Source of the DNA: SAR92 clade bacterium H455
GTDB lineage: Bacteria > Pseudomonadota > Gammaproteobacteria > Pseudomonadales > Porticoccaceae
DNA length: 64,000 nucleotides
Assembly (NCBI GenBank): GCA_024802545.1
Contig: CP103416.1
Location: forward strand, 434,001 to 498,000
Direction: 5' to 3'
Each line of letters begins with the position of its first letter. Position 1 is the first letter of the stretch. The translations under genes and the position numbers were made by a program. The notes below the pieces were generated by a model. It searched no databases, was not told the DNA's origin, and was given only the letters and a program-made list of their open reading frames with translations. This document shows positions 6,440-61,769 of the stretch, one piece after another.

Positions 6440-7747
6440 TTAGCGACCTTGGCTGCGCATATGTTGAGTGGTGAATTGGCGGTTGCGCAGCGGTGTTCGT
6501 GCGATACGGCTTTTCAATTGCAGGGTAGTGCAATGCTCAGCCTGCAGATCGATCATACCGACAGCCTCGGTCATCAATCCCTGCCATGCTCGGCTCTCTG
6601 GACGGTGCAGTGCCGATGAGCTAGCTGCTGCAATGCTGAGTTTCCACAGGTTACCGGCGTTGTCATATATGCGAGTGAGCAGCGGTGCATAGGTAGCGGC
6701 ATCAATTATGTAGTGTCGTTTGGAGAGCGGGTGGCCAGGGTCTCGGGGCGTGGCCTCTAGACGGTACACTTTACGCAGCTGCCAGGTAACGTTGGGAAAG
6801 CAGTGGCCAGCGCCGCTGAATTCAATTAGCTGAAAACCGCTTTCGTCAGCGGGCTCTTGCCAGTTGGTGAGCTGTGAGTGACCATAAATGGGCAGCAGCA
6901 GTTCGTCACTGCCCAAATATTGCCAATCCATATCCATGATGCGGCCGTTATAGCCAAGGAAATCTTCAATCATTATGTCGCTGCCAAGAAAAGCATCAGT
7001 TTTTTGTCCCGTGGCCAGACGTCGAACACGCCGCTGCGAACTCATATACATCCATGCTTGCTCGGTGACGCTATCCACTTCGTTGCGGTGTATTAGCAGT
7101 TGTGTGTTGCGAATATCCTGGGGTGCTTTGACCTGAAGATAGAGTGCGGTATAGAGGTTGGAGGGATTATTTTCCAGTGCTGGTATCGGCTTATCAGTGT
7201 GGCGGTATTTGTACCGCAAAAGGGCGCCATACATTTTTAACGTGCGCTCAATATTGTCCTTGCGCATATCGCGATAGTGCCAATTAAATTGCTCTGTCTC
7301 AGTTTCGTCGGGGGCGTAGCTATAACGCATATTCCACGCTGCTTTTAATCCCGCTTGTGGGTCGCTGTCCTCTAATTTTAAGAATGGGCGACCCCCGGTA
7401 TAGCCGAAAAGTTCTCCCGGTGCATCGCCAATCACCGTTCCGCCAAGATTTTCTCGGCTGGCCTTGCGGTAGTTCGGGTGTATCGGTATTTCAAGCGAGG
7501 GACCAAGGGTTAGGGTTAATGCATTGTCGCCAATTAAGTCAGCGACGGAGTCGTCTAGCCAATTCCTGTAGTCTGCAATATTACTGCTATCAATTTGTGT
7601 GCCCGCACTGAGTTTATTGGCGTCGTAGCGACTCAGTAGCGGATTAAATTCTGCATCAAGGTTGTCGTCTGTGAGGGCTGTTGAGCTAATGAGTAGCCCG
7701 ATTAGGGCAGCCAATTTGCATCGACCCGAGATAGTGCGATTAGACAT
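6440..7747 (-). CDS. DUF1329 (LolA-like) exported protein, operon-tail copy
   Basis: 435 residues from the ATG at 7747, chosen because AAGGGTGG sits at the right distance; the longer frame begins 18 bases upstream without a good site. The signal peptide runs about to residue 26 (CKLAALIGLLISSTALT). The protein shares long motifs with the DUF1329 protein at 26708, including HPNYxKAxREN, RRVRRLATGQ and TDAFLGSDIMIEDF. DUF1329 proteins have a LolA/LolB-like fold expected to hold a hydrophobic ligand in the periplasm. The start overlaps the end of the upstream gene by 8 bases, so it belongs to the phenol operon. The ligand is unknown. Confidence 0.85.
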   Translation of the reverse strand: MSNRTISGRCKLAALIGLLISSTALTDDNLDAEFNPLLSRYDANKLSAGTQIDSSNIADYRNWLDDSVADLIGDNALTLTLGPSLEIPIHPNYRKASRENLGGTVIGDAPGELFGYTGGRPFLKLEDSDPQAGLKAAWNMRYSYAPDETETEQFNWHYRDMRKDNIERTLKMYGALLRYKYRHTDKPIPALENNPSNLYTALYLQVKAPQDIRNTQLLIHRNEVDSVTEQAWMYMSSQRRVRRLATGQKTDAFLGSDIMIEDFLGYNGRIMDMDWQYLGSDELLLPIYGHSQLTNWQEPADESGFQLIEFSGAGHCFPNVTWQLRKVYRLEATPRDPGHPLSKRHYIIDAATYAPLLTRIYDNAGNLWKLSIAAASSSALHRPESRAWQGLMTEAVGMIDLQAEHCTTLQLKSRIARTPLRNRQFTTQHMRSQGR

Positions 7748-8345
7748 AGAGCCACCCTTTAACATAATGAGTTACACGTGGCATAACTAGGTAGGTCATC
7801 AGCACCACCTGCATAGTGACGATGACGGCCGTGCGGCTGTGAATATCCCAATCGCCAATCCAAGGAGCTAGCACGTAGTTGAGTGCGATAATTAGGTTAT
7901 ACACCACCGCGATTAGGACAACACTCATACGCCACTTGACGGGTTGCTTAGAGCTGGCGACTTGGGGAAATTCAAACCACACTTCAAGGCCAGTCGCGGT
8001 TTTAAATTTCGCCTCGCCCTCGACCATGCCATCAATTTTTGCCATCCATATCTGGCGTTGTGAAGACTGCTGCCAGGCCTTGGCATGGTCCATATTATCG
8101 AACCGATAAATAATGGTGTATCGACGCGACCCGAGACTTGGTCTAATTACATTGACGCCGAGATGGCCGCCAAAACGACTGGATTCTGTGGTAATGCCAG
8201 AGATCCATGCTTCGTAATCGGCTTCGCGCCCAGCGACTACGTCGCGACTTACCGAGACAGTGACATAGTTGTTTGTTATAGCGTTCTCAACCACAGCATC
8301 GCCTTGTGAGGCGGTGCTGTCCAGTTGGCTATCAATTATAGTCAT
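7740..8345 (-). CDS. Antibiotic-biosynthesis-monooxygenase-like domain with membrane anchor
   Basis: 201 residues. Residues about 28-125 look like an ABM ferredoxin-like domain ([20 protein letters not shown], then [19 protein letters not shown]). Residues 135-195 hold two membrane helices. Such ABM plus two-helix proteins are known but without a firm function; soluble ABM enzymes oxidise aromatics without cofactors. The ATG overlaps the stop of dmpG by ATGA (8342-8345), which points to translational coupling to the meta-cleavage genes. A role with quinone-like or phenolic products at the membrane is an inference. Confidence 0.72.
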
Positions 8346-15599: not shown

Positions 15600-16661
15600 C
15601 TATATCCGCTTGAACAAGGCACTGCGCTGTACTTCTTTTGCACCATCAGCCGCGGTGACAAACTTTTCCATGTGAATATCTTTCTCGAACAGTCTTCCTT
15701 GCATCAGCGCGTTGATAGCCGCATCAATCATTAGAGGTGGCCCGCACAGGTAGGCTTTGTGATCAGCAAACTTACCTTGAAAATGCGCCGCTGCGGCTTC
15801 ATGCACGAAACCGGTGAACCCTTGCCAGTTATCCTCCTCGGTCGGCTCGTTTAACGCTGGTACATAGGTAAAGTTACTGTGGCGCTCACTGAGCTGCTCG
15901 AAGCGCTCGCGGTGGTACAACTCAGAACCGTTGCGCGCGCCTTGAAATAAAGTGATCTGGCGTTCGTCACCGCTCTCCAACAAATCTAGAATCATGGACT
16001 CTGGTGATGACAGACCTGAACCTCCGGCAATAAACAGAACGTCTTTAGGGTCTGACTTGCGAACGAAGAATTGTCCATAGGGTCCGGAAAACTCGATTTC
16101 ATCGCCCACCTTAAGTTCGTTGTGGATATAGCCGGTCGCAGCGCCGTCGGGAATCTCGCGAATATGCAGTTCGATCCGCCCTGGATTGCTAGGAGCGTTG
16201 GCTATAGAAAATGCTCGGGTTCCCTCGATACCTGGTAGTTGCAAATTAATGTACTGCCCCGCCTGAAAAGTCATGTCTCGATCTAAGGCGAGAGTTAGCC
16301 CTTTGATGGTCGGCGAAAGGGTTTCGATCGCGCTGACAGTTGCGGTGTAATCTGCAACCAGATGACCGGCAAAGTCCGGGTCTACATCAATTTCTGCTTC
16401 GATCACTAGGTCCGATTCAGGTATAGCACAGCAAGCAAGAATCTTACCGTCGTCGCGTTCTGTATCTAAAAGTGCGAAAGGTGACGCCTCACCTTGGTCT
16501 GCTTCGCCCTCAACAAGCTGGCACTTACAGGTGGCGCAGGTGCCATGTCCGCAGGCGAAAGGAAGCCAGACACCCTGGCGAAGAGCGGCACTGAGAATTG
16601 TCTGACCCTCTTCCACTTCAATAATATCGCCAGTCGGCTCAATGGTGACTTGATAACTCAT
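15600..16661 (-). CDS. dmpP: Phenol hydroxylase reductase component P5
   Basis: 353 residues. The N-terminal [2Fe-2S] domain has C37, C42, C45 and C77. A ferredoxin-reductase-like FAD domain (RAFSIANAPSN, about 165-175) and an NAD domain (FIAGGSGLSSPESMI) follow. It passes electrons from NADH through FAD and the cluster to the diiron centre of DmpN. The gene follows dmpO by nine bases. Length and domain order match DmpP and the toluene monooxygenase reductases. Confidence 0.97.
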   Translation of the reverse strand: MSYQVTIEPTGDIIEVEEGQTILSAALRQGVWLPFACGHGTCATCKCQLVEGEADQGEASPFALLDTERDDGKILACCAIPESDLVIEAEIDVDPDFAGHLVADYTATVSAIETLSPTIKGLTLALDRDMTFQAGQYINLQLPGIEGTRAFSIANAPSNPGRIELHIREIPDGAATGYIHNELKVGDEIEFSGPYGQFFVRKSDPKDVLFIAGGSGLSSPESMILDLLESGDERQITLFQGARNGSELYHRERFEQLSERHSNFTYVPALNEPTEEDNWQGFTGFVHEAAAAHFQGKFADHKAYLCGPPLMIDAAINALMQGRLFEKDIHMEKFVTAADGAKEVQRSALFKRI

Positions 16662-16670
16662 GATGATTCC

Positions 16671-17033
16671 TTAGATACCTGCGCCTTTATAGCCAGTTAA
16701 TTCTGGTGTGACGAGTCTCAGCAAAGACTTGTGACCAATGTCCAACTCAGTTAGAGATTTGCTGTGATCGGGTTGGAATGCGCTGTTGTCGAGTATCCAC
16801 TGGGCTTTATTCCAGTCAATTTGATTGAACTCTGGGTGCTGCCCAAAAGCCTCGGGCATGACATTGTCGAGTAACTCCTGAAAGCGCATCTCTGGCGGCA
16901 GCGGAAATGCCCGAGAGGAGCAAAACATTTGATGTTTATCCCAGCCTAAATAGACCAATTGGGCGCCGCCAAATTTCTCAAGCGAGTCTTTAAATTCACC
17001 GTGATAGTCATCACGTAATGCTCTTATTGTCAT
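16671..17033 (-). CDS. dmpO: Phenol hydroxylase P4 (gamma) subunit
   Basis: 120 residues, close to the usual 119. It starts MTIRALRDDYHGEFKDSLEK and contains YLGWDKHQMFCSS, both typical of DmpO. It is the small subunit of the (LNO)2 hydroxylase and has been linked to iron supply and assembly. The gene lies between the large oxygenase subunit and the reductase. No cofactor residues are expected. Confidence 0.94.
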   Translation of the reverse strand: MTIRALRDDYHGEFKDSLEKFGGAQLVYLGWDKHQMFCSSRAFPLPPEMRFQELLDNVMPEAFGQHPEFNQIDWNKAQWILDNSAFQPDHSKSLTELDIGHKSLLRLVTPELTGYKGAGI

Positions 17034-17087
17034 AAAATATACTCAAATATCTGGGGCGCCTAATCGACACCCCGGTTTAATTAATGA

Positions 17088-18587
17088 TTAAGCCACGCCT
17101 TTCCATTCCTTCCAGCGTTCTGCGTCTGGTGAGCCTTCAAATTCTAAATTGGCAACACCATCATCTAAGTGGTAGTACTCCATGACTTTGTCTAGTCCAC
17201 CACCACCGCAGTTTCCTTGCAGAATTTGATGGACGGGTAGCCAGGCGTGGACATACTTTTCAGGCTCATTATCAAAGATGCTTTTGCATGGATCTGAACA
17301 GAAGTGGAATCGCTCATCGTTGTAAATACTCTCGCGATAACTCACTTGAGTGGGGTCACTCATTTCCGTGAATGCCATGGGTATTTGACAAGTCTGACAA
17401 AGTTGGGGGAGTCCAGTGGTATAGAATCGCTCTCCTTTAGCTTCCATTTCTGCGGCGAGCTCCCAGCGCGGTCGGTAGTACTTATCGAAAGTGTCAGGAT
17501 ACTTCTCACTGAGCCAATCCATCTCTTCTGCAGTGGGTGTCCAGGTGTGGAATGCGGCAGCATGTGTGTATTGGTAGAAAATCCACCATGCCTGATGGCT
17601 GAGGTGTTCTTTTTCTTGTTTGATGGTCTCGGTATAGTCGGGCATTTTGATACCGTAGCGCTCCAGGTCTTTAAAAAGAGAACCGCCAGCGTCTTCGAAA
17701 TAGAGCTCCCAGGCTTCCTGCCAAGACATGACCTTCTGCGGCAGCATATAGTCCATCATCATTGCCACTAATGTCAGCAGACGATAGCCACGCCACAGCC
17801 ACTTATCTAGCCATTTCTGAACGATTGGCAAGTTATCTTCATGCTGCTCGAGAATGAATTTTATTATCTCAAGCCCAAGTGTCATATGCCGTGCCTCGTC
17901 GGATTGAGCAGAGAATCCGAAGGTCACTGTGGCCATATCGCCGTTATATGCGGCGCCAGACATAAATGGAACAAAAAGCAGATTGGTTAGAACATATTCA
18001 AATGAGAAACCGATGGCGATCATAAATTCAAATGGGCCGGCGGTGCGTGCGTCTTCAAAAAAAGATTTGGGCACTGACAAGTACCATAGGCGATCGTGCA
18101 TATGGTTAAACTCATCGAAGCCATCGAAGAATTTGTTGTAGTGGCTCATCGCGTGAATTTGAGTTTGAATATGACGCAACTCATCGATCGACTGCATCTG
18201 TGCTGCAACGCGCGCGCCAATGCCACCCATCTGACGACCAGTGAAGGCAAAGCCTAGGTGCGCAGCATGCTCTCCGGGACTGACGCCAGTTAAAAATAGC
18301 TTGATGGCATTGACGTAACGGGCATCAGTTACATTAGTCTGGCCGTTGTTTTGGGCAAATGCATCGTAAATGGCGTAGAGCTTCTTCTCTTTTTCAGCCT
18401 GGTACTTCCAGTAAGACTCCATGGTTAAACGGAACGGGTCTTCCCATTTATCCCAGTCAGTGATTTTTATGCCCTCAAACTCTTCGTAAGGGAATGCCTC
18501 TTTCCGATCTTCATAAGAGAACTCCCAGTCTAGGTCGCGGGTGAGTAATTTATACTTATCTTTCAAATTAAGTTTTTTAGGTGACAT
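17088..18587 (-). CDS. dmpN: Phenol hydroxylase P3, diiron oxygenase large subunit
   Basis: 499 residues. The six diiron ligands are visible: E106, E136 and H139 (DELRH), E197, E231 and H234 (DEARH), with the same spacings as in DmpN. A C-terminal YHS-like segment has cysteine pairs (CQTC near 393, and FCSDPC near 430). It hydroxylates phenol to catechol using O2 and electrons from DmpP, with the effector DmpM. The gene lies in the middle of the dmpKLMNOP block. Length and motifs leave little doubt. Confidence 0.98.
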   Translation of the reverse strand: MSPKKLNLKDKYKLLTRDLDWEFSYEDRKEAFPYEEFEGIKITDWDKWEDPFRLTMESYWKYQAEKEKKLYAIYDAFAQNNGQTNVTDARYVNAIKLFLTGVSPGEHAAHLGFAFTGRQMGGIGARVAAQMQSIDELRHIQTQIHAMSHYNKFFDGFDEFNHMHDRLWYLSVPKSFFEDARTAGPFEFMIAIGFSFEYVLTNLLFVPFMSGAAYNGDMATVTFGFSAQSDEARHMTLGLEIIKFILEQHEDNLPIVQKWLDKWLWRGYRLLTLVAMMMDYMLPQKVMSWQEAWELYFEDAGGSLFKDLERYGIKMPDYTETIKQEKEHLSHQAWWIFYQYTHAAAFHTWTPTAEEMDWLSEKYPDTFDKYYRPRWELAAEMEAKGERFYTTGLPQLCQTCQIPMAFTEMSDPTQVSYRESIYNDERFHFCSDPCKSIFDNEPEKYVHAWLPVHQILQGNCGGGGLDKVMEYYHLDDGVANLEFEGSPDAERWKEWKGVA

Positions 18588-18618
18588 TATCTAGGTCCTT
18601 TTTTTACTTTAATCTAAA

Positions 18619-18888
18619 TTAGTTATTCCACATGATTTTGAAATAGTCGTCGTCTTCGTCAATATGTCCTGTGAGTGTTATCAGGTTGATGTGCAGTGAC
18701 TGCACATCCCACTCCATTCCTATCTGTTCTGAAACAGTGTCACGATTGATGATCAGTGATCCTTCATTCTCTACTCGGATCATTGCTGGCTCGTAATGCA
18801 CTACTGCGGTCGTGTTGTCTTGCTCAATCGCGGCAACGATATAGCGAGACTCGTCGTTATCCTGAAAAGCAATTTGTACTCGTGACAT
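18619..18888 (-). CDS. dmpM: Phenol hydroxylase P2 effector (coupling) protein
   Basis: 89 residues, cofactor-free, matching the length of DmpM. It begins MSRVQIAFQDNDESRYIVAA and ends with ITLTGHIDEDDDYFKIMWNN, in line with MmoB/DmpM family proteins. It binds the hydroxylase and gates substrate and oxygen access. It lies between the two larger hydroxylase subunits, as in all dmp-type clusters. A strong AGGTTTCCT-type spacing precedes the ATG. Confidence 0.95.
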   Translation of the reverse strand: MSRVQIAFQDNDESRYIVAAIEQDNTTAVVHYEPAMIRVENEGSLIINRDTVSEQIGMEWDVQSLHINLITLTGHIDEDDDYFKIMWNN

Positions 18889-18912
18889 AGGAAACCTCCG
18901 TTAATCCAACAA

Positions 18913-19899
18913 TTAGCAGTTCAGACCCACTTTGGTCAGTCGTTTTTCAAGCACAGCAAAGGCGTCTGCTAGGGCTTTATCGCCAAGCAAAGCACTGGCA
19001 AGCGGTTCAAGCGCTTCTTGAGCACGAATACGCCATGTGCTGATCCAAGCCAGAACCTGATTGCTATTATGCTCACTCTCTGTGACTACCACTTTGAGAA
19101 CCGAGTCAGACCAGCGCTGAGAATCCTTAGCACGATCCTGCATGAACTCCATTAGTAAGAGTAAGTCTCGCCCATTATTGTTGGTAAGCCATTCATCGAA
19201 TTGACGGTAGTAAAGGTCGTTGATTAACGTGTCTAAGACTATGTCTTGCGCAATAAAGGCCTCAAACCAGTCCTTTATCGTTAGCGTTTTTTCACAGTAG
19301 GCTCTCACCCCCTGCCAGGCAGGATTACTCATCCAGTGCTCTTTAGCCGTAGCTAGTGAATCACCTGTATTACCGTCGAGGGCCAGTCCTATTTTTGAGA
19401 AGTATTGTGCGTTACCAAATCGATCCATTGCCTCAAAAATGAGCGCCTGCGTGACTGCAGTTCCTGTGCCATGTGCAGTGCCGTACATATTGTTTAAGTT
19501 GGCAGCTACCTCGGCATGGCGCATGGGGATCACTAGCTGAATAATTTTTTCTCGCAAACTACTGTCAATGCTGTCTCCAAGTCCACGTTTCTCAAAAAAC
19601 TTAAAGTTGCCCTCAGCCGTCTCTTGCATCTTTGAACGGTTTTGAACATAGGGGCCATAGTAAAATTGGCGAGGATCCTTAAGGTCATACCAATCACCCA
19701 TAACCACAGCGGTTCTAGCTGGATCATTGATTTCACGATCTTGATCCCACAGCGGTTTGTAGTGGAAGTTGTGCGTTGAATGCACGTCGTATGTAGCCTC
19801 CTGATACCGCGTTGCAGGCTTGTCTCCGAATCGACGTTCGATGTGTGCATAAGTGTTTCGAATAGGCTTCATAGTCGAAGTTTTTATTTCAATAGTCAT
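18913..19899 (-). CDS. dmpL: Phenol hydroxylase P1 (beta) subunit
   Basis: 328 residues, all-helical, related to the large subunit but without metal ligands. Recognisable stretches are PIRNTYAHIERRFGDKPATR near the start, DPRQFYYGPYVQNRSKMQ, and HAEVAANLNNMYGTAHGTGT. It packs against DmpN in the dimeric hydroxylase. The gene follows dmpK by 72 bases and precedes dmpM by 24. Confidence 0.96.
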   Translation of the reverse strand: MTIEIKTSTMKPIRNTYAHIERRFGDKPATRYQEATYDVHSTHNFHYKPLWDQDREINDPARTAVVMGDWYDLKDPRQFYYGPYVQNRSKMQETAEGNFKFFEKRGLGDSIDSSLREKIIQLVIPMRHAEVAANLNNMYGTAHGTGTAVTQALIFEAMDRFGNAQYFSKIGLALDGNTGDSLATAKEHWMSNPAWQGVRAYCEKTLTIKDWFEAFIAQDIVLDTLINDLYYRQFDEWLTNNNGRDLLLLMEFMQDRAKDSQRWSDSVLKVVVTESEHNSNQVLAWISTWRIRAQEALEPLASALLGDKALADAFAVLEKRLTKVGLNC

Positions 19900-19971: not shown

Positions 19972-20232
19972 TCATCTGTTGTGTTTGGCTGCGAGGGTGT
20001 CGGTACCGTAGCGCCACTTTTCAGCATCTTCGTCAACCAGTTGGCACTGCTCAGGTGTCATTTCAGTGACTTGGTTGGCGATGCAAAATTCATCAAATGC
20101 CTTTTTCGGCAGTATCAGCTCAACGTAGAGACGAGGATCATCAATAGCGAAATCAAATTCCACGAACTGATCTCGAACAATGTTTCGTATGCGTACATAC
20201 TTACTTTTATCTCCCACCTCAAACCTTCGCAT
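19972..20232 (-). CDS. dmpK: Phenol hydroxylase P0 assembly subunit
   Basis: 86 residues, the first gene of the phenol operon. It contains the pattern KYVRIRNIVRDQFVEFDFAI and a C-terminal TPEQCQLVDEDAEKWRYG typical of DmpK. In Pseudomonas P0 helps form the active hydroxylase, possibly through iron insertion, and is not part of the final enzyme. The ATG at 20232 has AAAGGGG upstream, and a sigma-54 promoter lies about 58 bases further up. Confidence 0.93.
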   Translation of the reverse strand: MRRFEVGDKSKYVRIRNIVRDQFVEFDFAIDDPRLYVELILPKKAFDEFCIANQVTEMTPEQCQLVDEDAEKWRYGTDTLAAKHNR

Positions 20233-20289: not shown

Positions 20290-20305
20290 AGCAAGCACTA
20301 TGCCA
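20290..20305 (-). promoter_or_regulatory. Sigma-54 promoter of the phenol operon
   Basis: Read on the minus strand the bases are TGGCATAGTGCTTGCT. GG and GC are exactly 10 bases apart and the fit to TGGCAC-N5-TTGCW is close. Transcription should begin near 20279, leaving about 47 bases before the dmpK start. The dmp and xyl upper operons are known to use sigma-54 with DmpR or XylR, and the matching activator gene is at 28182. Confidence 0.88.
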
Positions 20306-20411: not shown

Positions 20412-20427
20412 TGGACCAATTGATCAA
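20412..20427. promoter_or_regulatory. DmpR/XylR-type upstream activator site
   Basis: TGGACCAATTGATCAA agrees with the palindromic XylR/DmpR site TTGATCAATTGATCAA at 14 of 16 positions. It lies about 110-120 bases upstream of the dmpK -24 element, the usual distance. A degenerate second copy may be at 20452-20467 (centre 40 bases away, about 11 of 16). The regulator encoded at 28182 is the likely binder. Confidence 0.72.
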
Positions 20428-20716: not shown

Positions 20717-20732
20717 TTTATCAAATGATAAA
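20717..20732. promoter_or_regulatory. Second DmpR-type activator site, facing the plus-strand transport genes
   Basis: TTTATCAAATGATAAA is a near-perfect palindrome (arms TTTATCA and TGATAAA) and agrees with the DmpR/XylR site at 13 of 16 positions. It lies about 122-137 bases upstream of the -24-like element at 20854, the same geometry as at dmpK. Chance AT-rich palindromes occur, so this depends on the promoter call. Confidence 0.45.
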
Positions 20733-20853: not shown

Positions 20854-20869
20854 TGGCACGGATTTTGGA
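20854..20869 (+). promoter_or_regulatory. Probable sigma-54 promoter of the transport set
   Basis: TGGCACGGATTTTGGA has a perfect -24 element (TGGCACG) and a near -12 element, with GG where GC is usual. Transcription would start near 20880, about 114 bases before the GTG of the first gene. The broken -12 dinucleotide may make it weak. No better promoter is evident in this orientation. Confidence 0.5.
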
Positions 20870-20993: not shown

Positions 20994-22046
20994 GTGAATT
21001 TTGTTTCATCTGTAAATAGTGCGTCTGATACTAACGGTTGTACTGCTGGCCATTCTAATCCGAGTTGCCTGCACAAGGGCTCGGGCCTCATTCGACATTT
21101 CTCCAGCGCAGCCATTCTCGCCATGGCTGGCTTCCTCTGCGCCTGTGAGGCGCGTTTAAATCTCTCTGGCGTCGAAGACACTCTCAATCAGCCTATCCGT
21201 CGCACCGACCAGCTTATGGTGTTAGAGCATGTTGGCGAAACCTTGGTCATGTTGGGTAATGACGGACTGCTGCTGAGACGGCCCATAGAGGGTGAGGTTT
21301 GGCAGCGTGACCAGCTTGGTGATGCCGATAACCATCCGGACTTTATCAGTGGAGCTGTGTGTGGTGATGGTTCGCTGGTGGCTTTGTCTTATCAGGCGGA
21401 CGTTTGGCATTCCCGTGATCAGGGTGAATCGTGGCAAACCTATTCCTTGCCAACAGATGAGGATGTTCAAGACATTGATTGTACTCAGAGCAACGAACTA
21501 TGGGTCGTCGGTAGCTTTTCAACAATGCTTCACAGTTCTGCTGCAGGTCAAGAGTGGGAGGTCACCACTCTGGATGAAGATGCAATGCTAACCGCCGTTA
21601 CTTTTTCTAGTGCCGAACAGGGCTATTCAGCTGGAGAGTTCGGCTTACTGGCAGTCACTAAGGATGCTGGGGACAGTTGGACTGTTGTTGATCTGATCGG
21701 CGATGAATTGTACCCATTGGCAGTTCACTTTGATCTTGCGGGTAACGGTTGGGTGGGAGGTTTGCAGGGTGTGATTATGCGATCCCGCGACGGTGGAGAG
21801 AGCTGGGAGCGAACCGACACACCTACTGAATCTCCAATCTACAAATTTTTGATGGTGGGTGAAAAGCTTATAGCCACCGGTGATCAGGGCGTTATTCTTC
21901 AATGGTCGGAAGGGGCTTGGCGGAAAGTCGAAACGCCCGATATACCGACTTACTTTCGTGCTGGGGTTGCGCTGGATAATCAACGCGCCCTTATAGCCGG
22001 CGGTTGGGGTGTTTTACTACCCCTGTCTTTAGACGCCTCTCTTTAA
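20994..22046 (+). CDS. YCF48/Asp-box beta-propeller lipoprotein-like protein
   Basis: 350 residues from a GTG start chosen because GGGGGAG lies 5 bases upstream. A hydrophobic stretch ends in FLCAC near residues 47-51, a plausible but imperfect lipobox. The rest is a propeller with at least three Asp-box motifs (HSRDQGESW, TKDAGDSW, SRDGGESW) and a glycine-rich GGWGVLL end, as in YCF48-type proteins. It is exported and probably tethered. It lies 28 bases before the MMPL gene, and by position acts as an accessory or scaffold of that transporter. Function in this setting is unproven. Confidence 0.78.
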   Translation: MNFVSSVNSASDTNGCTAGHSNPSCLHKGSGLIRHFSSAAILAMAGFLCACEARLNLSGVEDTLNQPIRRTDQLMVLEHVGETLVMLGNDGLLLRRPIEGEVWQRDQLGDADNHPDFISGAVCGDGSLVALSYQADVWHSRDQGESWQTYSLPTDEDVQDIDCTQSNELWVVGSFSTMLHSSAAGQEWEVTTLDEDAMLTAVTFSSAEQGYSAGEFGLLAVTKDAGDSWTVVDLIGDELYPLAVHFDLAGNGWVGGLQGVIMRSRDGGESWERTDTPTESPIYKFLMVGEKLIATGDQGVILQWSEGAWRKVETPDIPTYFRAGVALDNQRALIAGGWGVLLPLSLDASL

Positions 22047-22074
22047 GTGCAGTATCAATATGGAAAATTACTGA

Positions 22075-24468
22075 ATGTCTGAGCAATCTCATTTTTTTAA
22101 TCGAGTTGAAATAAGTCTGTTTGCCAATCCTAAATTGGTTCTTCTGGCAATTTTTGCTACGACATTGTTTTTTGCATGGCAGATACCCAGCGTAAAAATG
22201 TACTCAGATTTTGCAGACTTACTGCCACAAAAACATCCTTATATCGAACTTCACAATGAGATAAAAGATAACTTTGGCGGCGCTAATGTGATCATAGTGG
22301 GCGTTGAAGTTGAAGAGGGAAACATATTTTCCAATGAGACGTTAGAGCTCATCCACCAGGTGACTCAAGCCGTGGATAATCTGCCTGGCGTTAACCACAA
22401 TCTGGTTTCTAGTTTTACTCACCGCACGACTCGAAAGGTGTGGCTCACTGAGATGGGCAATATTGTCTCGGACCCATATTATAGACCCCAAGACCCCCTG
22501 ATGAGTGCAGAGGCATTGACTGAGCTGAGTAAGGCAGTTGTCGCTAATCCTCAGGTCTATGGCCCTTTGGTCTCGTCCGACATGAAGACCGCGTTAATTA
22601 AGGCACAGCTCAACGAGGGAGCGCTCGATTACGAAAAGACCTTTGCGCAGCTACAACAATTGCGCGCAGATTATGCTCGCGAAGGGATCAATATCTATGC
22701 CACTGGTCAGCCGGTGCTGGTTGGCTGGGCCTACTACTACAAAGATCAAATTTTCCAGATTTTAGTTTTTACTGCGCTGATTATGGTAACGCTACTGATC
22801 TTTCATTTTCGTTCATGGTATGGCGTGCTGGTTCCGTTGGCTGGAGTGTTGGTGTCTACTACTTGGGGCATTGGGATTATTTCGCTGTTTGGCTACAACC
22901 TCGACCCACTGGGTTTGGTGATTCCCTTTCTAATCTCGGCGCGAGCGATGTCGCATGGGATTCAGCTAGTCGAGCGTTACTATGCAGAACTTGAAGAAAC
23001 GAGAAATTCTCATGATGCTGCACGGCGTACTTTTGAAAACCTGTTCCGCCCAGGCTCATTGGGAGTTGTCTCAGACGCAGTGGGACTATTGCTGATTGCA
23101 ATTGGCTCTATTCCACTCAATACCAAATTGGCCCACTACTCGTCTCTTTGGGCGCTGAGCATCATTATAACCGTGCTGTTAGCCGTCCCTTTGCTGTTGT
23201 CTGTGCTGCCTAAACCGTCCAAAACACAGCTAAAACAAAATGTGTTGCGTCACGTCGCTGATTCCGCCAGCGGGGTTGTCGTCGCTAATCCAGCGTTAAT
23301 TTTGATGGTCGGACTGGTTCTCACCGTTGGTGGTGGCTTTGTAGCCTCCCATGTGACCATCGGTGAATCGGAGCCTGGATCACCTATTCTGTATCAGGAT
23401 CACGACTACAATATCTCGTCTAAAGCGATCAACGACAGTTTTCCTGGTTCAGAGGAGCTTTATATAGTCGCCGAGCATCGCGATGAGGGTGGTATGAAAA
23501 AGCCCGAAGTGCTGCGAGAGCTAGAAGCTCTGCAACGCCATATGCTGCTCGATCCAGATGTGGGTGGTTCCAAGGGGATGCCCGACCTGATAAAACAAGT
23601 AAATCGGTTACTGCACAATAACGATCCGCGCTGGCAGCAGATACCCAAAGATGAGTTTTATGTGGGTGGTTTGATGTTTGCCTACATGGCGTCTAGCCCA
23701 ATTCCTGGGGCTTTGAAAGAGTTTGTTGATCCTTCGGAACGTGTAGCTAACCTAGTCTTTTTTTATAAAGATCACCAGGGTGAGACTATCCGTCGTGCTA
23801 TCCACACGGCGAAGCAGTGGATCGAAGAAAATGATGGCAAGGTTGATGGTCTAAGTATTCGCCTTGCTGGCGGTACCATCGGTGTTACAGCAGCAATGAA
23901 CGAAGCGGCCTTCGATACTAACAAGGTTGTGTTGCCGCTGGTATTTTTGCTGATCTTCGCTTTTGTAATGATTTTCTACCGCTCGCTCCAGGCCGGTTTC
24001 ATGATGTTCGTGGCAATGTTCTTCGCCACTACGCTTACCTATGCCTACATGGGCTTGGCAGAGGTCGGCATCAATATCAATACGGTGCCGATTATTGCGG
24101 TCGGCGTAGGTGTCGGTATCGATTATTCCATTTATATGATGGACCGTATCCGCGAGGAGATGGTGCGTCGTGGTGACCTGCGAGAGTCGGTGCGTGCGGC
24201 ACTGCGCACCACTGGACTGGCGGTCAGCTTTACAGCAATTACTTTGATTGCTGGGATCGTGATGTGGATTTTTCTCTCCGATTTACGCTTTCAGGCTGAT
24301 GCGGCTCTGCTGCTCAGTGTCATGGTAGTGCTCAACGGTATCGCCGCTCTCTGGCTAGTGCCGTCTTGGGTACTGGTCTTTAAACCGAAGTTTATAACCC
24401 AATTGTCTGATGATGCCGGTGAAATTATCCAGCGGAATCACTCACAAGCCCCGTCTGAAGATTTGTGA
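22075..24468 (+). CDS. MMPL/RND-superfamily inner-membrane transporter
   Basis: 797 residues with the RND plan: one helix near residue 20, a periplasmic loop (to about 215), five helices with a sterol-sensing-like region, a second helix near 410, a second loop, then the last five helices. The fourth helix of the second half contains IIAVGVGVGIDYSIYMMDRI, with the acidic residue used for proton coupling. Size and lack of a large third lobe fit MmpL/HpnN-type lipid exporters rather than AcrB. Neighbouring DUF1302 and DUF1329 proteins suggest movement of a hydrophobic compound between membranes. Direction is unknown. Confidence 0.88.
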   Translation: MSEQSHFFNRVEISLFANPKLVLLAIFATTLFFAWQIPSVKMYSDFADLLPQKHPYIELHNEIKDNFGGANVIIVGVEVEEGNIFSNETLELIHQVTQAVDNLPGVNHNLVSSFTHRTTRKVWLTEMGNIVSDPYYRPQDPLMSAEALTELSKAVVANPQVYGPLVSSDMKTALIKAQLNEGALDYEKTFAQLQQLRADYAREGINIYATGQPVLVGWAYYYKDQIFQILVFTALIMVTLLIFHFRSWYGVLVPLAGVLVSTTWGIGIISLFGYNLDPLGLVIPFLISARAMSHGIQLVERYYAELEETRNSHDAARRTFENLFRPGSLGVVSDAVGLLLIAIGSIPLNTKLAHYSSLWALSIIITVLLAVPLLLSVLPKPSKTQLKQNVLRHVADSASGVVVANPALILMVGLVLTVGGGFVASHVTIGESEPGSPILYQDHDYNISSKAINDSFPGSEELYIVAEHRDEGGMKKPEVLRELEALQRHMLLDPDVGGSKGMPDLIKQVNRLLHNNDPRWQQIPKDEFYVGGLMFAYMASSPIPGALKEFVDPSERVANLVFFYKDHQGETIRRAIHTAKQWIEENDGKVDGLSIRLAGGTIGVTAAMNEAAFDTNKVVLPLVFLLIFAFVMIFYRSLQAGFMMFVAMFFATTLTYAYMGLAEVGININTVPIIAVGVGVGIDYSIYMMDRIREEMVRRGDLRESVRAALRTTGLAVSFTAITLIAGIVMWIFLSDLRFQADAALLLSVMVVLNGIAALWLVPSWVLVFKPKFITQLSDDAGEIIQRNHSQAPSEDL

Positions 24469-24532
24469 TAGCTGTGGTACTTGGTATCAATCACCCTTCA
24501 GAAAATAATTAAACTAGAAAAGGAGCAACACT

Positions 24533-26599
24533 ATGTATTTACAAAGCTCTATGAAACGTCTGGCCTTTGGCCTTACAGTCGCTGGAATTGCCAGTGCTGC
24601 AATGGTTGAAAGTGCTCTTAGTAGAGACGTCGAATGGTCCGGTTTTGGCGAAGAGGTGGTTCACCACCGCAAAGATATCGGTATTTCCAAAGCGCGCAGT
24701 GGCTTCCAGCTGGAGGGACTAAAGTTTGTTGGCGACGTTGGCCCATTTAGCAATGTCAGCGTCAACGGTATTATGCGCATTAGCTACGACGCCGTGTATG
24801 ATTTGAATGACGATGAATATGGCGATAAGGCCGGTGGCGCAGCGTTCCTCAACTCCTATGGATTGGCCAATATTGGCGCGCCGACTTTGGTGCCGGTTAA
24901 CGGCGATGGTCTTGGTCCTGCTGGTGGCCTCAATGTAGGCAACTTCGCCGTAATTAACATTTTAGGACCAAGAGTGGAGGAGATTACGGGGGCGCCCGCG
25001 GGAACATTTTCTGGTCCTACAGGCATGCTGGCAGGTAATACATTTGTGGATAGTTACCCCGACAACCCGAATGTCGGCATGATTACCCTGGGTGATCATC
25101 TGCGCAACCATGCCGATGGCGTTGCCTTCGGTGTGCCGGTGCGTCCTTGTGATACCGACAGTCGCGGCTGTATCAATGACTACATGGATGCCGACAAAAA
25201 AGAGTTAGCATCACCGGAGATATTTAGCGATCGCGCCGACTGGCTGCGTGAACTCTATGTCGATGCCACGTTATTGGGAAGTGGTGATAATGAAATTAAC
25301 TTCCGTCTCGGTAAGCAGCAGGTGATCTGGGGTCGTACGGATCTGTTCCGCGTTCTTGATGTGATTAACCCTGTGGATTACTCGCGTAACAACATCTACG
25401 ACGAGTTGGAAGATATTCGTATTCCGATGTGGATGCTCAAGGCTGACTTTCGCTTTGGCGCCACCGGCTCGTTCGATGACTTGAACATGCAGGTGGTGTG
25501 GAACTTCGATAAGTTCCGTCCCAACAACCTCGGGCAGTGCGGTACCCCCAATGTGATTTTGGATGCGGGATGTTTCTTCCGTGGTATGAAGAATTTGTGG
25601 GATAACGGTGGCACTGTTGCCAACTTTGCGCCATTTGACCCAGCAGACCCGAGTCTAGGACTTTTGGCTACCAACTTTGGACCGCAGACCATTGGTATTC
25701 GGAATGTCGACCTGCCCTCATGGAAACTCTCGAATACTCAGTTAGGTTTTAAGGTTGAGGGTGTGAGCGGTGATTTTGGTTGGTCTGTCAATGCCTTAAC
25801 CTATCGCTCGCAGCTGCCTTCACTGCGTGCTGGCAATGTTGAAGTGGTTAATCCATTTACCGGCGGAGCTGCACAGACTTATGACCATCTAATTGCTTTC
25901 GATGTGGCTTTTCCCCGAGTAAATTTAGTTGGCGCTTCGGTGGATTACTATTCGCAGGCTATTGATACTGTATTTCGTGTAGAGATAGCGGGCACTCAGG
26001 GTGAAGAGTTTGCCAATACCCTGCGCCCTGAACTCTACTCGGAGTCGGATGTGGTGCGCTTTGTCGTTGGTGCAGACAAAAATTTCTTTATCCGCGCGCT
26101 CAATAAAGATCGTGCCTTCTTGATTTCAGGTCAAATCTTTGGTCAGCATTTACTCGACCATGAACTAGGTCAAGCGACTTTGGGCAAAGTAGGTATGCCT
26201 GATTGGGAGAAGAATCACATTGCTACGCTATTGGTCAAAGGTTGGTGGATGAATGATCGGTTAAGCCCTCAGGTGATTATGGCGCATGACTTCCGCGCTG
26301 GTGCGACAGTGATATCGCCCTCTATCGATTGGTTAATTAGTGACAATTGGCAGCTAGTGCTGACCGGCAATTACAAAACCGGTGGTAGCGATCATAAGTT
26401 TGACGACTGTCGCTTATGTAATCCCTTTGGACCGTTCACCACGTCTATCCCCGCTTTGCCAGAGCATGGTGCTGATGGTTTAACCTCAGGCTCAGCAGGC
26501 CTGACTGGTTTCGAACCGCTCGGGCGCTTTCGTTCTGGCCCATTGGGCATGGCAGAGAAAGAAGACGAGATCCAAATTGCTATTCGTTACCGTTTCTAA
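24533..26599 (+). CDS. DUF1302 outer-membrane protein
   Basis: 688 residues with a strong AAGGAG ribosome site. A signal peptide spans about residues 1-30 (MKRLAFGLTVAGIASAAMVESALS). The body is rich in alternating aromatic strands with segments such as FRLGKQQVIWGRTDLFRVLDV and VNPVDYS typical of DUF1302, and it ends in IAIRYRF, the C-terminal phenylalanine of an outer-membrane barrel. DUF1302 genes commonly occur beside DUF1329 genes in hydrocarbon- and steroid-using proteobacteria. It may be the outer-membrane channel of the set. The substrate is not known. Confidence 0.87.
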   Translation: MYLQSSMKRLAFGLTVAGIASAAMVESALSRDVEWSGFGEEVVHHRKDIGISKARSGFQLEGLKFVGDVGPFSNVSVNGIMRISYDAVYDLNDDEYGDKAGGAAFLNSYGLANIGAPTLVPVNGDGLGPAGGLNVGNFAVINILGPRVEEITGAPAGTFSGPTGMLAGNTFVDSYPDNPNVGMITLGDHLRNHADGVAFGVPVRPCDTDSRGCINDYMDADKKELASPEIFSDRADWLRELYVDATLLGSGDNEINFRLGKQQVIWGRTDLFRVLDVINPVDYSRNNIYDELEDIRIPMWMLKADFRFGATGSFDDLNMQVVWNFDKFRPNNLGQCGTPNVILDAGCFFRGMKNLWDNGGTVANFAPFDPADPSLGLLATNFGPQTIGIRNVDLPSWKLSNTQLGFKVEGVSGDFGWSVNALTYRSQLPSLRAGNVEVVNPFTGGAAQTYDHLIAFDVAFPRVNLVGASVDYYSQAIDTVFRVEIAGTQGEEFANTLRPELYSESDVVRFVVGADKNFFIRALNKDRAFLISGQIFGQHLLDHELGQATLGKVGMPDWEKNHIATLLVKGWWMNDRLSPQVIMAHDFRAGATVISPSIDWLISDNWQLVLTGNYKTGGSDHKFDDCRLCNPFGPFTTSIPALPEHGADGLTSGSAGLTGFEPLGRFRSGPLGMAEKEDEIQIAIRYRF

Positions 26600-26707
26600 A
26601 TTGACGGTTTAGCAAAAACATTGTGAAGGATGAAGCAGCAGGGACGCTGATAAATTGCTAATTGCCAGCCATCATCCAGATTTGTGTGATGGGTTAAGGA
26701 GAAAACT

Positions 26708-28015
26708 ATGAACTATAAGACACTAATAAAAATGACGATTGCCGCCGCACTGCTGCCAGTTATTTCAGTATCAGCGACCCCGGTTGACGATTCGTTTTAC
26801 CCTTATAACAACAGCACGCCGACTTATTCTGGATTGACGCCAGGTATGACGTTGACGGCCAATAATATTGGCCAATTCCCGGGCGTTATCGATCCAGAAA
26901 TGGCGGCCGCTATTGCAGCTGGAGATGTGGAGATTAAGGTAGGTAAAACTACCTCATTCGATTTGCATCCAAACTACGTAAAAGCAACCCGAGAAAACGC
27001 TGGTAATGTGAAGCTGGGTGAACAAGTCGGTGAAATTAATGGTTGGGTTGCAGGGCGTCCGTTTACAGAAGAGCCTGCACAAGATGATCCTCGCGCAGGG
27101 GAAAAGTTAGCCTGGAACTATAAGTATGGTTACAACTGGGGCGACAATGCGGCGATCTATCCGTTCTATTGGAAGTACCGCAACATGGAGAGCGGTGAGG
27201 TAGAGCGAACCCTAAAGTTTAATTTTCACTTTTTGAATTACCAAGGACGAGTCAACCAGGAGCCGCTACCAAATATTGAGCCCAACCCTTCAAACCTCTA
27301 TCGCTCAATCTATGTTCAAGTGTTGGCTCCCTATGATGTAAAGAACACTCAATTACTGATCCAGCGTAACGCTGACGATCTAAAACGTGATAACGCTTGG
27401 CTTTACCTCGGCTTCCAGCGTCGCGTGCGTCGTCTGGCGACCGGGCAGGTGACCGATGCATTCCTTGGGTCAGATATTATGATTGAGGATTTCGAAGGTT
27501 ATAACGGCCGTGTCTCCGATATGAAGTGGAACTTTATTGAGACTAAAAATGTCTTGCTGCCTTTTTACAATCACAACGATATGGCTCTTGATACAGAGAC
27601 CCATCAAGACAGTGACGGCTACCAAGTTGCCGCGTTTTCTGGCAAGGGTGGATGCTACCCTGATGTTGAGTGGCAACTGCGTAAAGCCTATGTCGTGGAG
27701 GCGGTCCCATTAGACAGCAATCACCCTATGAGCAAGCGCGTTTTCTATATGGACGCACAGACTTTTACCATTCCGCGGACTAACATTTATGATCGTGCTG
27801 GTAACCTGTGGAAAAAATGGATCATTGGTCAGGCTCATCCAGACCATCACTTGCCAAAAAACAAAGGTTCAGGAGTCTCTATTGATGACGCCTTTGCAAT
27901 GGTGGATATACAGGCCAACCACTGCACTACTGGCCAGTTTAAGGGGCAAGTGGATCCAAGTCTGACGCCAACATCGCTCTTTACGCCACAGAATATGCGT
28001 GCAACTGGGCGGTAA
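26708..28015 (+). CDS. DUF1329 (LolA-like) periplasmic protein
   Basis: 435 residues with a signal peptide ending near VSA-TP at residue 23. It has the DUF1329 landmarks DLHPNYVKATRENAG, FQRRVRRLATGQ and DAFLGSDIMIEDFEGYNGR, and a conserved cysteine pair late in the chain (GGCYPDVEWQLRK, then NHCTTGQF). The fold is of the LolA/LppX type, expected to carry a hydrophobic molecule through the periplasm. It has a good AAGGAG site and is followed by a strong terminator, so it ends the four-gene operon. A paralogue is at 6440. Confidence 0.87.
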   Translation: MNYKTLIKMTIAAALLPVISVSATPVDDSFYPYNNSTPTYSGLTPGMTLTANNIGQFPGVIDPEMAAAIAAGDVEIKVGKTTSFDLHPNYVKATRENAGNVKLGEQVGEINGWVAGRPFTEEPAQDDPRAGEKLAWNYKYGYNWGDNAAIYPFYWKYRNMESGEVERTLKFNFHFLNYQGRVNQEPLPNIEPNPSNLYRSIYVQVLAPYDVKNTQLLIQRNADDLKRDNAWLYLGFQRRVRRLATGQVTDAFLGSDIMIEDFEGYNGRVSDMKWNFIETKNVLLPFYNHNDMALDTETHQDSDGYQVAAFSGKGGCYPDVEWQLRKAYVVEAVPLDSNHPMSKRVFYMDAQTFTIPRTNIYDRAGNLWKKWIIGQAHPDHHLPKNKGSGVSIDDAFAMVDIQANHCTTGQFKGQVDPSLTPTSLFTPQNMRATGR

Positions 28016-28043: not shown

Positions 28044-28071
28044 ACGCCGGCCATGGGCCGGCGTTTTTTTT
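28044..28071 (+). terminator. Rho-independent terminator of the transport operon
   Basis: ACGCCGGCC (28044-28052) and GGCCGGCGT (28056-28064) form a perfect 9-bp stem with an ATG loop, followed by eight T. It lies 28 bases past the DUF1329 stop and separates that operon from the regulator gene. Confidence 0.95.
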
Positions 28072-28181
28072 GCTATTGGTAATTCAATTCAACAGATGGT
28101 GGACGTTATATGCGCAAGCCTCTAGACTGGATGAAAAAATACAAATGCAGATCGATGTACTACCAATAACGCAGGTTTAGT

Positions 28182-29867
28182 ATGGACAGTGATGCACCTA
28201 AATTAGATGTAAGCCAAGTGACTCCGCACATTGCTTTTTCCAGTGAGGAGGGCAAAGTCTGGCTCAATGAGCAGCGAGTCATATTGTTCTCGCAAGCTGC
28301 TCTGGGCAAGTTCCGCAAGGAAGTCTATGACACCATTGGGCAAGAACGCTGCAAGTCGTTTTTTCTGCGCCTGGGTTATCAGCTAGGGATACTCGACGGT
28401 GAATTGGCGCGCAGCAGTGGTGCGGAAATGTCGATCAAAGATCGCTTTAATTTGGGTCCGGAATTACATGCCCTGCGCGGTATGGTGCTGCCGGAATTGC
28501 AACGCCTGGTTGTCAGTGAGAAAGGTGGTGAATTCATCTGCGAAGTAGTCTGGTTCAACTCCTATGAGGTGGAGATCTGCGCCAACGAAATGGGGCCGAT
28601 GGATGAGCCTGGCTGTTGGAATCTAACGGGTTACGCCAGTGGTTACAGTTCGTCGCTGTTGCAACGAGAGATATTTTTTCAGGAGTTGGAGTGCCGTAGT
28701 TGTGGTGGTGAGCGCTGCTTCGCTGTAGGCAAGCCTGCAGCAGAATGGGACAATTATGAACAGCTCAAGCGTTACTACCAATCCGACCCTCTACTCGAAG
28801 AATTAAGCAAATTGCAGACGACAGTGGAGGCGCTCAAAGAATCCCTCAATGAGGGCGATAAACTGCCTAATATTGTTGGCTCATCAAAACCTTTTAAACA
28901 CGCACTGGAAATGGTGACTAAAGCCTCAGACAGTAAAGTATCTGTATTGCTGTTGGGAGAAACTGGAGTCGGCAAAGAGGTGCTGGCGCGTGCAGTACAT
29001 ATCACCAGCGATCGTGCCGATAAACCTTTTATCGCAGTGAACTGCGCTGCAATACCCCCCGACTTGATCGAGTCTGAACTTTTCGGTGTGGAAAAGGGTG
29101 CCTATACGGGTGCCAATCAGTCGCGGATGGGGCGCTTTGAGCGCGCCGACAAGGGCACTATCATGCTCGATGAGGTAATTGAACTTACGCCTCGCGCGCA
29201 GGCAACGTTATTGCGTGTGTTGCAAGAGAGCGAGTTTGAGCGAGTGGGAGACAACAAGGTCCGTAAGATTGATGTCCGCGTCGTCGCCGCTACCAATGAG
29301 GATTTAAGTGTTGCCGTGGAGCAGGGACGATTTCGCGCTGACCTTTACTACCGTTTAAGTGCTTATCCCATCAATATTCCACCGCTGCGTGAGCGAAAAG
29401 AAGATATCCCTCTCTTTGTTACGCATTTTTTGGAGAAATACCGAGCTCTCTACAACAAAAATGTACTCGGTATTACTGATCGTGGTATGGAAATGTTATG
29501 TGGTTATAGGTGGCCGGGCAATATTCGAGAGCTGGAAAATGTGGTTGAGCGGGCTGTCATTTTGGCCGATATCAATGGCGTTATTAGTATGGAGTCCATG
29601 TTCCCAGAAAGTGCTCTACGACCTTCAGAGGCTAAGGTGCTAGACCCCGCAGGTAAACTGCAAAATCAGATATTCCCGGAGGGGGTTGACGCTAATGAGT
29701 TAGTCGATTCTCTCCTCTCCTCGGGCTTTGAGCTAGAGAAATTTGAAAAAACGATGTTAACCTCGGCGCTGCAAAAAACCCAGGGCAATATCTCCAAAGC
29801 GGCGAGATTAGTTGGCCTAAGTCGTCCGGCTTTTGCTTATCGGATGAAAAAAATGACTGCTCAGTGA
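28182..29867 (+). CDS. dmpR: DmpR/MopR-type sigma-54 activator of phenol catabolism
   Basis: 561 residues: XylR_N sensor (about 15-105), V4R (about 110-185), linker coil, AAA+ domain (about 230-460) and Fis-type DNA-binding end (about 515-560). The zinc ligands C145, E168, C171 and C179 keep the MopR spacing, and H96 and W124 match the MopR phenol-pocket residues H106 and W134. The AAA+ domain has GETGVGKE, the sigma-54 contact loop GAYTGA (usually GAFTGA) and LDEVIEL in place of the common LDEIGEL. It should bind the upstream sites at 20412 and perhaps 20717 when phenol is present. Confidence 0.93.
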   Translation: MDSDAPKLDVSQVTPHIAFSSEEGKVWLNEQRVILFSQAALGKFRKEVYDTIGQERCKSFFLRLGYQLGILDGELARSSGAEMSIKDRFNLGPELHALRGMVLPELQRLVVSEKGGEFICEVVWFNSYEVEICANEMGPMDEPGCWNLTGYASGYSSSLLQREIFFQELECRSCGGERCFAVGKPAAEWDNYEQLKRYYQSDPLLEELSKLQTTVEALKESLNEGDKLPNIVGSSKPFKHALEMVTKASDSKVSVLLLGETGVGKEVLARAVHITSDRADKPFIAVNCAAIPPDLIESELFGVEKGAYTGANQSRMGRFERADKGTIMLDEVIELTPRAQATLLRVLQESEFERVGDNKVRKIDVRVVAATNEDLSVAVEQGRFRADLYYRLSAYPINIPPLRERKEDIPLFVTHFLEKYRALYNKNVLGITDRGMEMLCGYRWPGNIRELENVVERAVILADINGVISMESMFPESALRPSEAKVLDPAGKLQNQIFPEGVDANELVDSLLSSGFELEKFEKTMLTSALQKTQGNISKAARLVGLSRPAFAYRMKKMTAQ

Positions 29868-54206: not shown

Positions 54207-54217
54207 GCGTTAAACCC

Positions 54218-54238
54218 CTGGCGCCCGCATGGCGCCAG
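54218..54238 (+). terminator. Attenuator-like hairpin between urtA and urtB
   Basis: CTGGCGCC (54218-54225) and GGCGCCAG (54231-54238) form a perfect 8-bp stem with a 5-base loop, followed by TATCTTTTT. It could end part of the transcripts or protect the urtA message. Confidence 0.65.
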
Positions 54239-54306
54239 TATCTTTTTGTTTGATGTACATTTTTCACATGCACTTTTTGACAAATATCTTATTCAAGGAA
54301 TTGATC

Positions 54307-55233: not shown

Positions 55234-55245
55234 GAGATAGATTAA

Positions 55246-56421: not shown

Positions 56422-56424
56422 GCC

Positions 56425-57168: not shown

Positions 57169-57180
57169 GGAATTTAGAAC

Positions 57181-57870: not shown

Positions 57871-57923
57871 TTTATTCAACTACCTCTCTAACCCAGAATT
57901 TTTAAAAATATAGGAAAAAAGTC

Positions 57924-59159: not shown

Positions 59160-59187
59160 CCGCTTTGTTAATAAGGAGCTTTAAACT

Positions 59188-59535: not shown

Positions 59536-59563
59536 TTATATAGATACTGGTTAGCAAAAAATA

Positions 59564-59593
59564 TTAGTTGCCCTAATCATCAGGGGCAACTAA
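59564..59593. terminator. Bidirectional terminator between fmdB and ureG
   Basis: TTAGTTGCCC (59564-59573) and GGGCAACTAA (59584-59593) form a perfect 10-bp stem. A run of six A on one side gives T6 on the minus strand for the urease operon, and TTACTTTT follows on the plus strand for fmdB. Confidence 0.88.
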
Positions 59594-59620
59594 TTACTTT
59601 TAAGTTAAATCTCAGAAACT

Positions 59621-60265: not shown

Positions 60266-60278
60266 GGGTAAGTCCTAA

Positions 60279-60968: not shown

Positions 60969-60979
60969 TTAATGGGGCT

Positions 60980-61207: not shown

Positions 61208-61268
61208 TGGAGTTTCCTTAAAATGATAAGCGGGTAATGGTTAGCAGATAATGCGAGGCCTGTAATAA

Positions 61269-61754: not shown

Positions 61755-61769
61755 CAAATAGGCCTGTAG

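Follow-up and report, generated by a model that had tools for sequence, protein, structure and literature searches.

The window, i.e. the whole stretch of 64,000 nucleotides analysed, carries a block of four genes whose products together are of the AmeABCD type (DUF1302, DUF1329, YCF48 and HAE3-like RND proteins). This kind of transporter is already known; what we did not find spelled out in the literature searched is how closely and how often it goes with phenol genes, down to a promoter of the matching phenol type. The preliminary description of this DNA had proposed a single transport system that has a component for every layer of the envelope and is linked to the catabolism of aromatics, and this is supported by the constant gene order, the phenol hydroxylase genes nearby and the shared promoter type. 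Our main reading, to which we give an about even chance, is that the block encodes a phenol-induced, MMPL-powered pathway in which a LolA-like shuttle and an outer-membrane barrel would clear membrane-partitioned phenolics, that is, efflux for the sake of tolerance.

DUF1302 and DUF1329 are common, uncharacterised families. The phenol clade described below has a clear chemical setting, a probable inducer and hosts that can be grown in culture (Marinobacter, Stutzerimonas, Halopseudomonas, Neptuniibacter), which makes the cargo and direction of AmeABCD-type systems testable.

The four genes and their products

The block consists of the following elements:

20994..22046, + strand: YCF48-type beta-propeller lipoprotein (AmeC-like); GTG start, predicted lipobox Cys51, three Asp-boxes
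22075..24468, + strand: MMPL/HAE3-like RND inner-membrane pump (AmeD-like), with motifs in TM4 and TM10
24533..26599, + strand: DUF1302 beta-barrel of the outer membrane (AmeA-like), ending in Phe; the model has about 18 strands and an Occ/OprD-like fold
26708..28015, + strand: DUF1329 carrier of the periplasm (AmeB-like); LolA fold plus an additional N-terminal part
28044..28073, + strand: intrinsic terminator closing the block; GC-rich hairpin followed by a T-run

The reading frames and family assignments first proposed for these genes were borne out by an ORF check and by the Pfam scores: 70.7 bits for PSII_BNR/YCF48 (cut-off 27), 106.5 bits for MMPL, 153.6 bits for DUF1302 and 251.9 bits for DUF1329, the last protein also matching LolA_like (64.6 bits). 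The tight spacing and strong terminator noted earlier are equally real, with gaps of 28, 64 and 108 bp between the co-directional genes and a terminator hairpin of -18.3 kcal/mol (z -3.2).

The first protein had been described as an Asp-box propeller lipoprotein, and both the lipobox cysteine and the three Asp-boxes are present. The lipobox reads LCAC51-EA in the window and mostly L-x-G-CEA in relatives; Cys51 is invariant among 23 aligned sequences and is followed by Glu-Ala, or by Glu-Ser in one row. The protein is predicted to be a lipoprotein, for which we infer the outer membrane as destination. Identity with the photosystem II assembly factor Ycf48 was rejected, the score being 73.6 against 326 bits (NF010237); what the protein matches is the propeller family PF14870.

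The pump aligns over residues 18-766 with the HAE3-lineage model TIGR00921, at 143.5 bits, below the cut-off of 351.9. Its likeness to the hopanoid transporter HpnN, which had been suggested from the sequence, does not extend to family membership: the pump is not HpnN, since it scores far below both cut-offs (51.5 against 751.85 bits for TIGR03480 and 26.8 against 1100 for NF052374). A tripartite RND pump (HAE1) was also rejected, as no membrane-fusion protein or TolC-type duct is encoded among the four genes or the neighbours scanned. TM10 keeps the MMPL Gly-x-Asp-Tyr motif (G681-I-D683-Y684, window 24115-24126), and TM4 carries an invariant Ala-Arg-x-x-Ser-His (A289-R290-A-M-S-H294, window 22939-22956). 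MmpL3-type pumps have an Asp-Tyr pair in TM4. The Arg version of TM4 is common to the relatives in EbN1 and Methylibium, and another large MMPL group has Ala-Ile-Gly-x-Ser-His. From these residues we infer a charge pair across TM4 and TM10 that would serve proton coupling; the two motifs taken together hint at an unusual proton relay.

The model of the DUF1329 protein (pLDDT 83) shows a LolA fold over residues ~125-434, with Z scores of 20-22 to LolA-like structures (LolA3, 3bk5, 4z48); the values are 22.3 for 9tp6 and 20.6 for 4z48, with an rmsd of 2.5-2.9 over ~231 residues. An N-terminal part of ~100 residues (~25-125; window 26780-27082) is confidently modelled and falls outside the alignments to LolA structures; it may be the docking part of the family.

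The DUF1302 model is weaker (mean pLDDT 65). Its barrel resembles Occ/OprD porins (Z ~21, rmsd ~3), including the vanillate channel OpdK and a BenF-like porin, and a search by sequence for a solved structural relative found none. The terminal Phe pointed out in the preliminary description is present, as it is in all complete DUF1302 relatives; the signal peptide was judged by eye. The length of DUF1302 proteins varies from ~530 to 730 residues among loci (L062-L140), that of the pump being conserved, and loops of the barrel may set specificity.

Conservation of the block and linkage to phenol catabolism

When 195 genomes of the order were searched with the window's MMPL protein, a distinct clade emerged, with 59-76% identity in eight other genomes and a next best match of 34%. 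All seven clade members with enough flanking DNA, the window included, have the order YCF48-MMPL-DUF1302-DUF1329. A species-wide scan (one genome per species, 84,980 species) yielded 80 clade loci (MMPL identity 63-100%); these are the best 80 of 264 confirmed candidates, picked by two peptide patterns of the clade, and they describe the clade and not all DUF1302/DUF1329 genes. In these best 80 of 264, YCF48 lies directly upstream of MMPL in all 80, DUF1302 comes next in 78 and DUF1329 in 73, every missing gene falling at a contig end. Co-occurrence of the four genes beyond chance, on which the idea of a single system depended, is thus confirmed by the same order in 80 of 80 related loci, contig ends aside. 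Among the closest pumps are those of marine gammaproteobacterium HTCC2207 (99% identity) and strain MOLA455 (93%), and several Porticoccaceae contigs are also close, which places the window in the SAR92 clade of marine bacteria. One clade member (L103, 4067-15459), from a MAG binned as Desulfuromonadales, adjoins a UbiD decarboxylase gene, a context that suggests anaerobic aromatic use or a binning error.

To the left of the block and reading away from it lies a complete dmpKLMNOP operon, followed by a meta-cleavage pathway:

19972..20232, - strand: dmpK, first gene of the phenol hydroxylase operon
15600..19899, - strand: phenol hydroxylase genes dmpL, dmpM (18619-18888), dmpN, dmpO and dmpP
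6440..7765, - strand: second DUF1329 gene, at the tail of the meta-cleavage operon; product 42% identical to the first

On the right, the gene for a sigma-54 activator occupies 28182-29867, so that the block does lie between the phenol operon and its presumed activator, as had been noted. Farther away, and separate from the block, window positions 52947-63476 hold periplasmic-binding-protein and permease genes together with genes for an acetamidase/formamidase and a urease alpha subunit.

Phenol hydroxylase (PF02332) is present in 15 of the 195 genomes of the order (12 of them dmp-type by score), and it lies within ~15 kb of seven of the nine clade members, the other two being on contigs of 3.1 and 7.8 kb. 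It is close by in only 2 of the 121 other MMPL matches (Fisher p ~1e-8 against the clade). The expectation that the block follows catabolic clusters also holds species-wide: among the best 80 of 264 loci, dmpL of phenol hydroxylase is found within 10 kb in 54 and a MobR-like activator within 10 kb in 58. About one third of these best 80 of 264 are without a phenol hydroxylase within 10 kb; 26 genomes were searched for want of a complete one nearby, and 21 of them encode the enzyme somewhere. Some clade members adjoin genes for a molybdenum hydroxylase and a XylR-type regulator, for a UbiD decarboxylase or for a VanA-type Rieske oxygenase. At least three dmp-bearing genomes of the same order (G075, G157, G185) have no such block nearby, which means that the block is not required for phenol use.

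The position of the block relative to the dmp genes is variable. It is divergent from dmpK in the SAR92 group, follows dmpP or dmpB in Marinobacterium and Neptuniibacter, and lies downstream of mobR in Marinobacter, Halopseudomonas and Stutzerimonas; a place after dmpH is also among the arrangements. The linkage therefore outlasts rearrangement, which argues for joint use. This bears on the alternative that the block is a mere passenger, travelling on the same mobile DNA as the phenol genes without working together with them. Such carriage would agree with the patchy occurrence of the block among families and with its presence in Pseudomonas veronii from a site contaminated with aniline, on a conjugative plasmid that bears dmpKLMNOP, the regulator, YCF48 and MMPL in the Marinobacter-type arrangement. 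Distances of MMPL, YCF48 and DUF1302 correlate with those of dmpN at 0.87-0.93, values that cannot separate joint function from shared descent and so are not proof of the former. Against mere carriage stand the persistence of the linkage through rearrangement and its independent origin in a second MMPL lineage, two divergent MMPL/YCF48 pairs (28-30% identity; G122, G150) also adjoining dmp genes. The promoters described below weigh further against this alternative, which we regard as very improbable.

Promoters and the MobR/DmpR-type activator

Candidate regulatory sites were found in the interval between dmpK and the YCF48 gene, on both strands:

20854..20869, + strand: candidate sigma-54 -24/-12 promoter of the four-gene block, TGGCACG-GATT-TTGGA, 1 mismatch; conserved in relatives
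20717..20732, + strand: candidate DmpR-type upstream activating site of the four-gene block, TTTATCAAATGATAAA, 3 mismatches; 130 bp upstream of the -24 element
20290..20305, - strand: candidate sigma-54 -24/-12 promoter of the phenol operon, TGGCATA-GTGC-TTGCT, 2 mismatches
20412..20427, - strand: candidate DmpR-type upstream activating site of the phenol operon, 2 mismatches; 114 bp upstream of the -24 element
28182..29867, + strand: MobR/DmpR-type sigma-54 activator; GAYTGA motif, pocket residues His96 and Trp124, and Cys145, Glu168, Cys171 and Cys179

The sigma-54 pattern with up to two mismatches has 10 matches in the window for 12.7 expected, so that a single site in the window proves nothing and only conservation and spacing across loci do. 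In 66 of 77 loci such a site is found no farther than 700 bp from the YCF48 gene, against 5.7% of random windows, and in 53 of 77 one with at most one mismatch, against 2.3%; the rows of this survey are related and not independent, and they span several gene arrangements with different upstream neighbours. A palindrome (up to 4 mismatches) is found upstream of the sigma-54 site of the block in 62 of the 66 loci, in 51 of these at 100-150 bp; DmpR acts from 100-200 bp upstream (PMC7264223). The dmp operons have a sigma-54 site upstream in 49 of 51 cases, with the palindrome at similar distances. A natural contrast is provided by four LysR-flanked, Amphritea-type loci (L075, L076, L079, L109), which have no sigma-54 site. 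Three of these four carry a different meta pathway on the locus and the type appears to be a rewired variant of the block. That the block has its own candidate DmpR-type sigma-54 promoter in most loci is the further point against its being a passenger of the phenol genes.

The activator is composed of XylR_N, V4R, AAA+ (with GAYTGA) and Fis-type HTH domains. Its closest family model is that of MobR, a regulator of phenol degradation, at 642.7 bits, which is under the strict cut-off of 999. The sensor domain aligns with the structures of DmpR/CapR and MopR and retains both residues that bind the hydroxyl group of phenol, His and Trp; in the same alignment the zinc-site columns are occupied by Cys and Glu. 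The phenol-pocket and zinc-site residues are named in PMC7264223, the printed Cys numbers of which are two off from the alignment, and for this reason we claim the aligned columns alone.

Judging from the conserved sites, the four-gene block would belong to a DmpR/MobR-type phenol regulon. It shares with the known regulons the V4R sensor, the sigma-54 promoter and a palindromic activator site 100-200 bp upstream (PMC7264223), and differs in that a transporter operon stands under the same type of promoter. In the literature searched we found no report of a transporter operon under a DmpR/MobR-type promoter, and the DmpR-type phenol regulons would thereby gain a second operon that we did not find described there.

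Related systems and the proposed mechanism

It had been thought from the sequence that a defined four-part machine of this composition with known cargo was not known. This is incorrect, as shown by the deletion phenotype of AmeABCD (PMC6394551) and by two related systems (PMC13101534, PMC10866462). In Castellaniella defragrans 65Phen, deletion of ameABCD lowers the tolerance to limonene and to other hydrocarbons and monoterpenes; the loss is partly rescued by acetate, and growth on functionalised monoterpenoids is normal (PMC6394551). Uncoupled mutant cells accumulate more Nile Red, real-time efflux being nearly identical to that of the wild type (PMC6394551). The window's block resembles AmeABCD in its DUF1302 barrel, LolA-like DUF1329 protein, YCF48/COG4447 protein and RND pump (of the HAE3 lineage in AmeABCD, HAE3-like in the window), as compared by family, and both sit in a catabolic island, AmeABCD itself being induced with the substrate (PMC6394551). 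The gene order, however, is A-B-C-D there and C-D-A-B here, the context is monoterpenes there and phenol here, and AmeC was called periplasmic whereas the YCF48 protein here is a predicted lipoprotein. The AmeABCD authors had already noted the four-gene cassette as conserved in the lineage (PMC6394551).

The 'Nanopod' cluster of the Desulfobacterota benzene degrader ORM2a, which is expressed, unites a porin-like protein with DUF1329, YCF48 and MMPL, and movement of benzene across membranes has been proposed for it; it differs by extra universal-stress and hypothetical genes and by its anaerobic benzene context (PMC13101534). Pseudomonas putida encodes a comparable set in two separate gene pairs, PP_0765/PP_0766 and PP_2018/PP_2019: a DUF1302 and a DUF1329 protein, a periplasmic protein and a transporter of the efflux type. 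Contacts among these proteins are predicted, and the mutants have a phenotype in common, the genes being needed for growth on Tween 20 (PMC10866462). A cluster on plasmid 2 of Aromatoleum aromaticum EbN1 (NC_006824.1) has the window's order, YCF48-MMPL-DUF1302-DUF1329, but its MMPL protein is 35.6% identical and its neighbours belong to acyl-CoA pathways. The phenol hydroxylase cluster listed in a Zoogloea paper includes genes for DUF1302 and DUF1329. A phenol-hydroxylase-linked DUF1302/MMPL/RND system, the phenol clade and its DmpR-type promoter were not found in the literature searched.

In the efflux pathway that we favour, phenol would cause the neighbouring MobR/DmpR-like activator to fire two divergent sigma-54 promoters, that of phenol hydroxylase and that of the transporter, as the conserved sites suggest. 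By analogy with its family, the MMPL pump, driven by the proton gradient, would extract a hydrophobic compound from the inner membrane; the LolA-fold DUF1329 protein would ferry it across the periplasm, replacing the membrane-fusion protein and TolC duct, and the DUF1302 barrel would be the exit through the outer membrane. Published co-folding of the P. putida relatives suggests that the YCF48 lipoprotein may organise the assembly, probably by binding the pump. Phenol, alkylphenols or toxic intermediates that have dissolved in the membrane would be the most likely cargo, in which case the job of the system would be tolerance during growth on phenol. If so, it would help explain how phenol degraders withstand their own substrate, and would amount to a tolerance module for bioremediation that is present on a conjugative plasmid. 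A broader possibility, which we put forward tentatively, is that these systems form a separate class of trans-envelope efflux, with a LolA-fold shuttle in place of fusion protein and TolC, each clade being specialised to the substrate of the neighbouring operon and, in many gammaproteobacteria of sea and soil, the phenol branch being wired firmly to the activator of the phenol genes.

Efflux is favoured over uptake and lipid traffic because the sole relative with a deletion mutant loses tolerance, and because phenol needs no importer. Phenol crosses membranes easily. This also cuts against our main reading, since neither import nor export is then obviously needed, and the requirement for the P. 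putida relatives on Tween 20 (PMC10866462) is as compatible with uptake or lipid handling as with export. The near-identity of mutant and wild type in real-time Nile Red efflux in Castellaniella (PMC6394551) counts against the main reading as well. Were the system to serve uptake, DUF1302 would admit hydrophobic aromatics such as alkylphenols or longer-chain phenolics, DUF1329 would carry them inward and the MMPL protein would pass them on to the inner membrane, working in the reverse direction to an ordinary RND pump. Co-regulation with a catabolic operon, the Tween 20 phenotype and the closeness of the DUF1302 model to Occ/OprD porins, among them OpdK and the BenF-like porin, would suit such a role, but a shared porin fold is silent on the direction of transport. 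A proton-driven RND protein that imports would be unusual, and the tolerance loss of the ameABCD mutant, with its partial rescue by acetate and its normal growth on functionalised monoterpenoids (PMC6394551), speaks against uptake, which we consider rather doubtful.

The LolA-fold carrier and MMPL pump also recall the lipid traffic of MmpL3 (from PDB profile matches) and HpnN. Phospholipids or solvent-damaged lipids might thus be moved between membranes under phenol stress, the phenolic being the inducer and not the cargo, and the very different catabolic genes beside the relatives (CoA pathways in EbN1) would allow a generic cargo of this kind. On the other hand, the HpnN and MmpL3 models score far under their cut-offs, and the strong association of the clade with phenol genes points to a particular chemical setting; we hold lipid maintenance to be unlikely.

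Besides the proposed efflux pathway, the second DUF1329 gene of the window may be linked to the four-part system. It adjoins a DsbA-like gene, and a similar neighbourhood occurs in another genome (G003, L042). The genome has only one DUF1302 gene, which gives two DUF1329 carriers for a single barrel.
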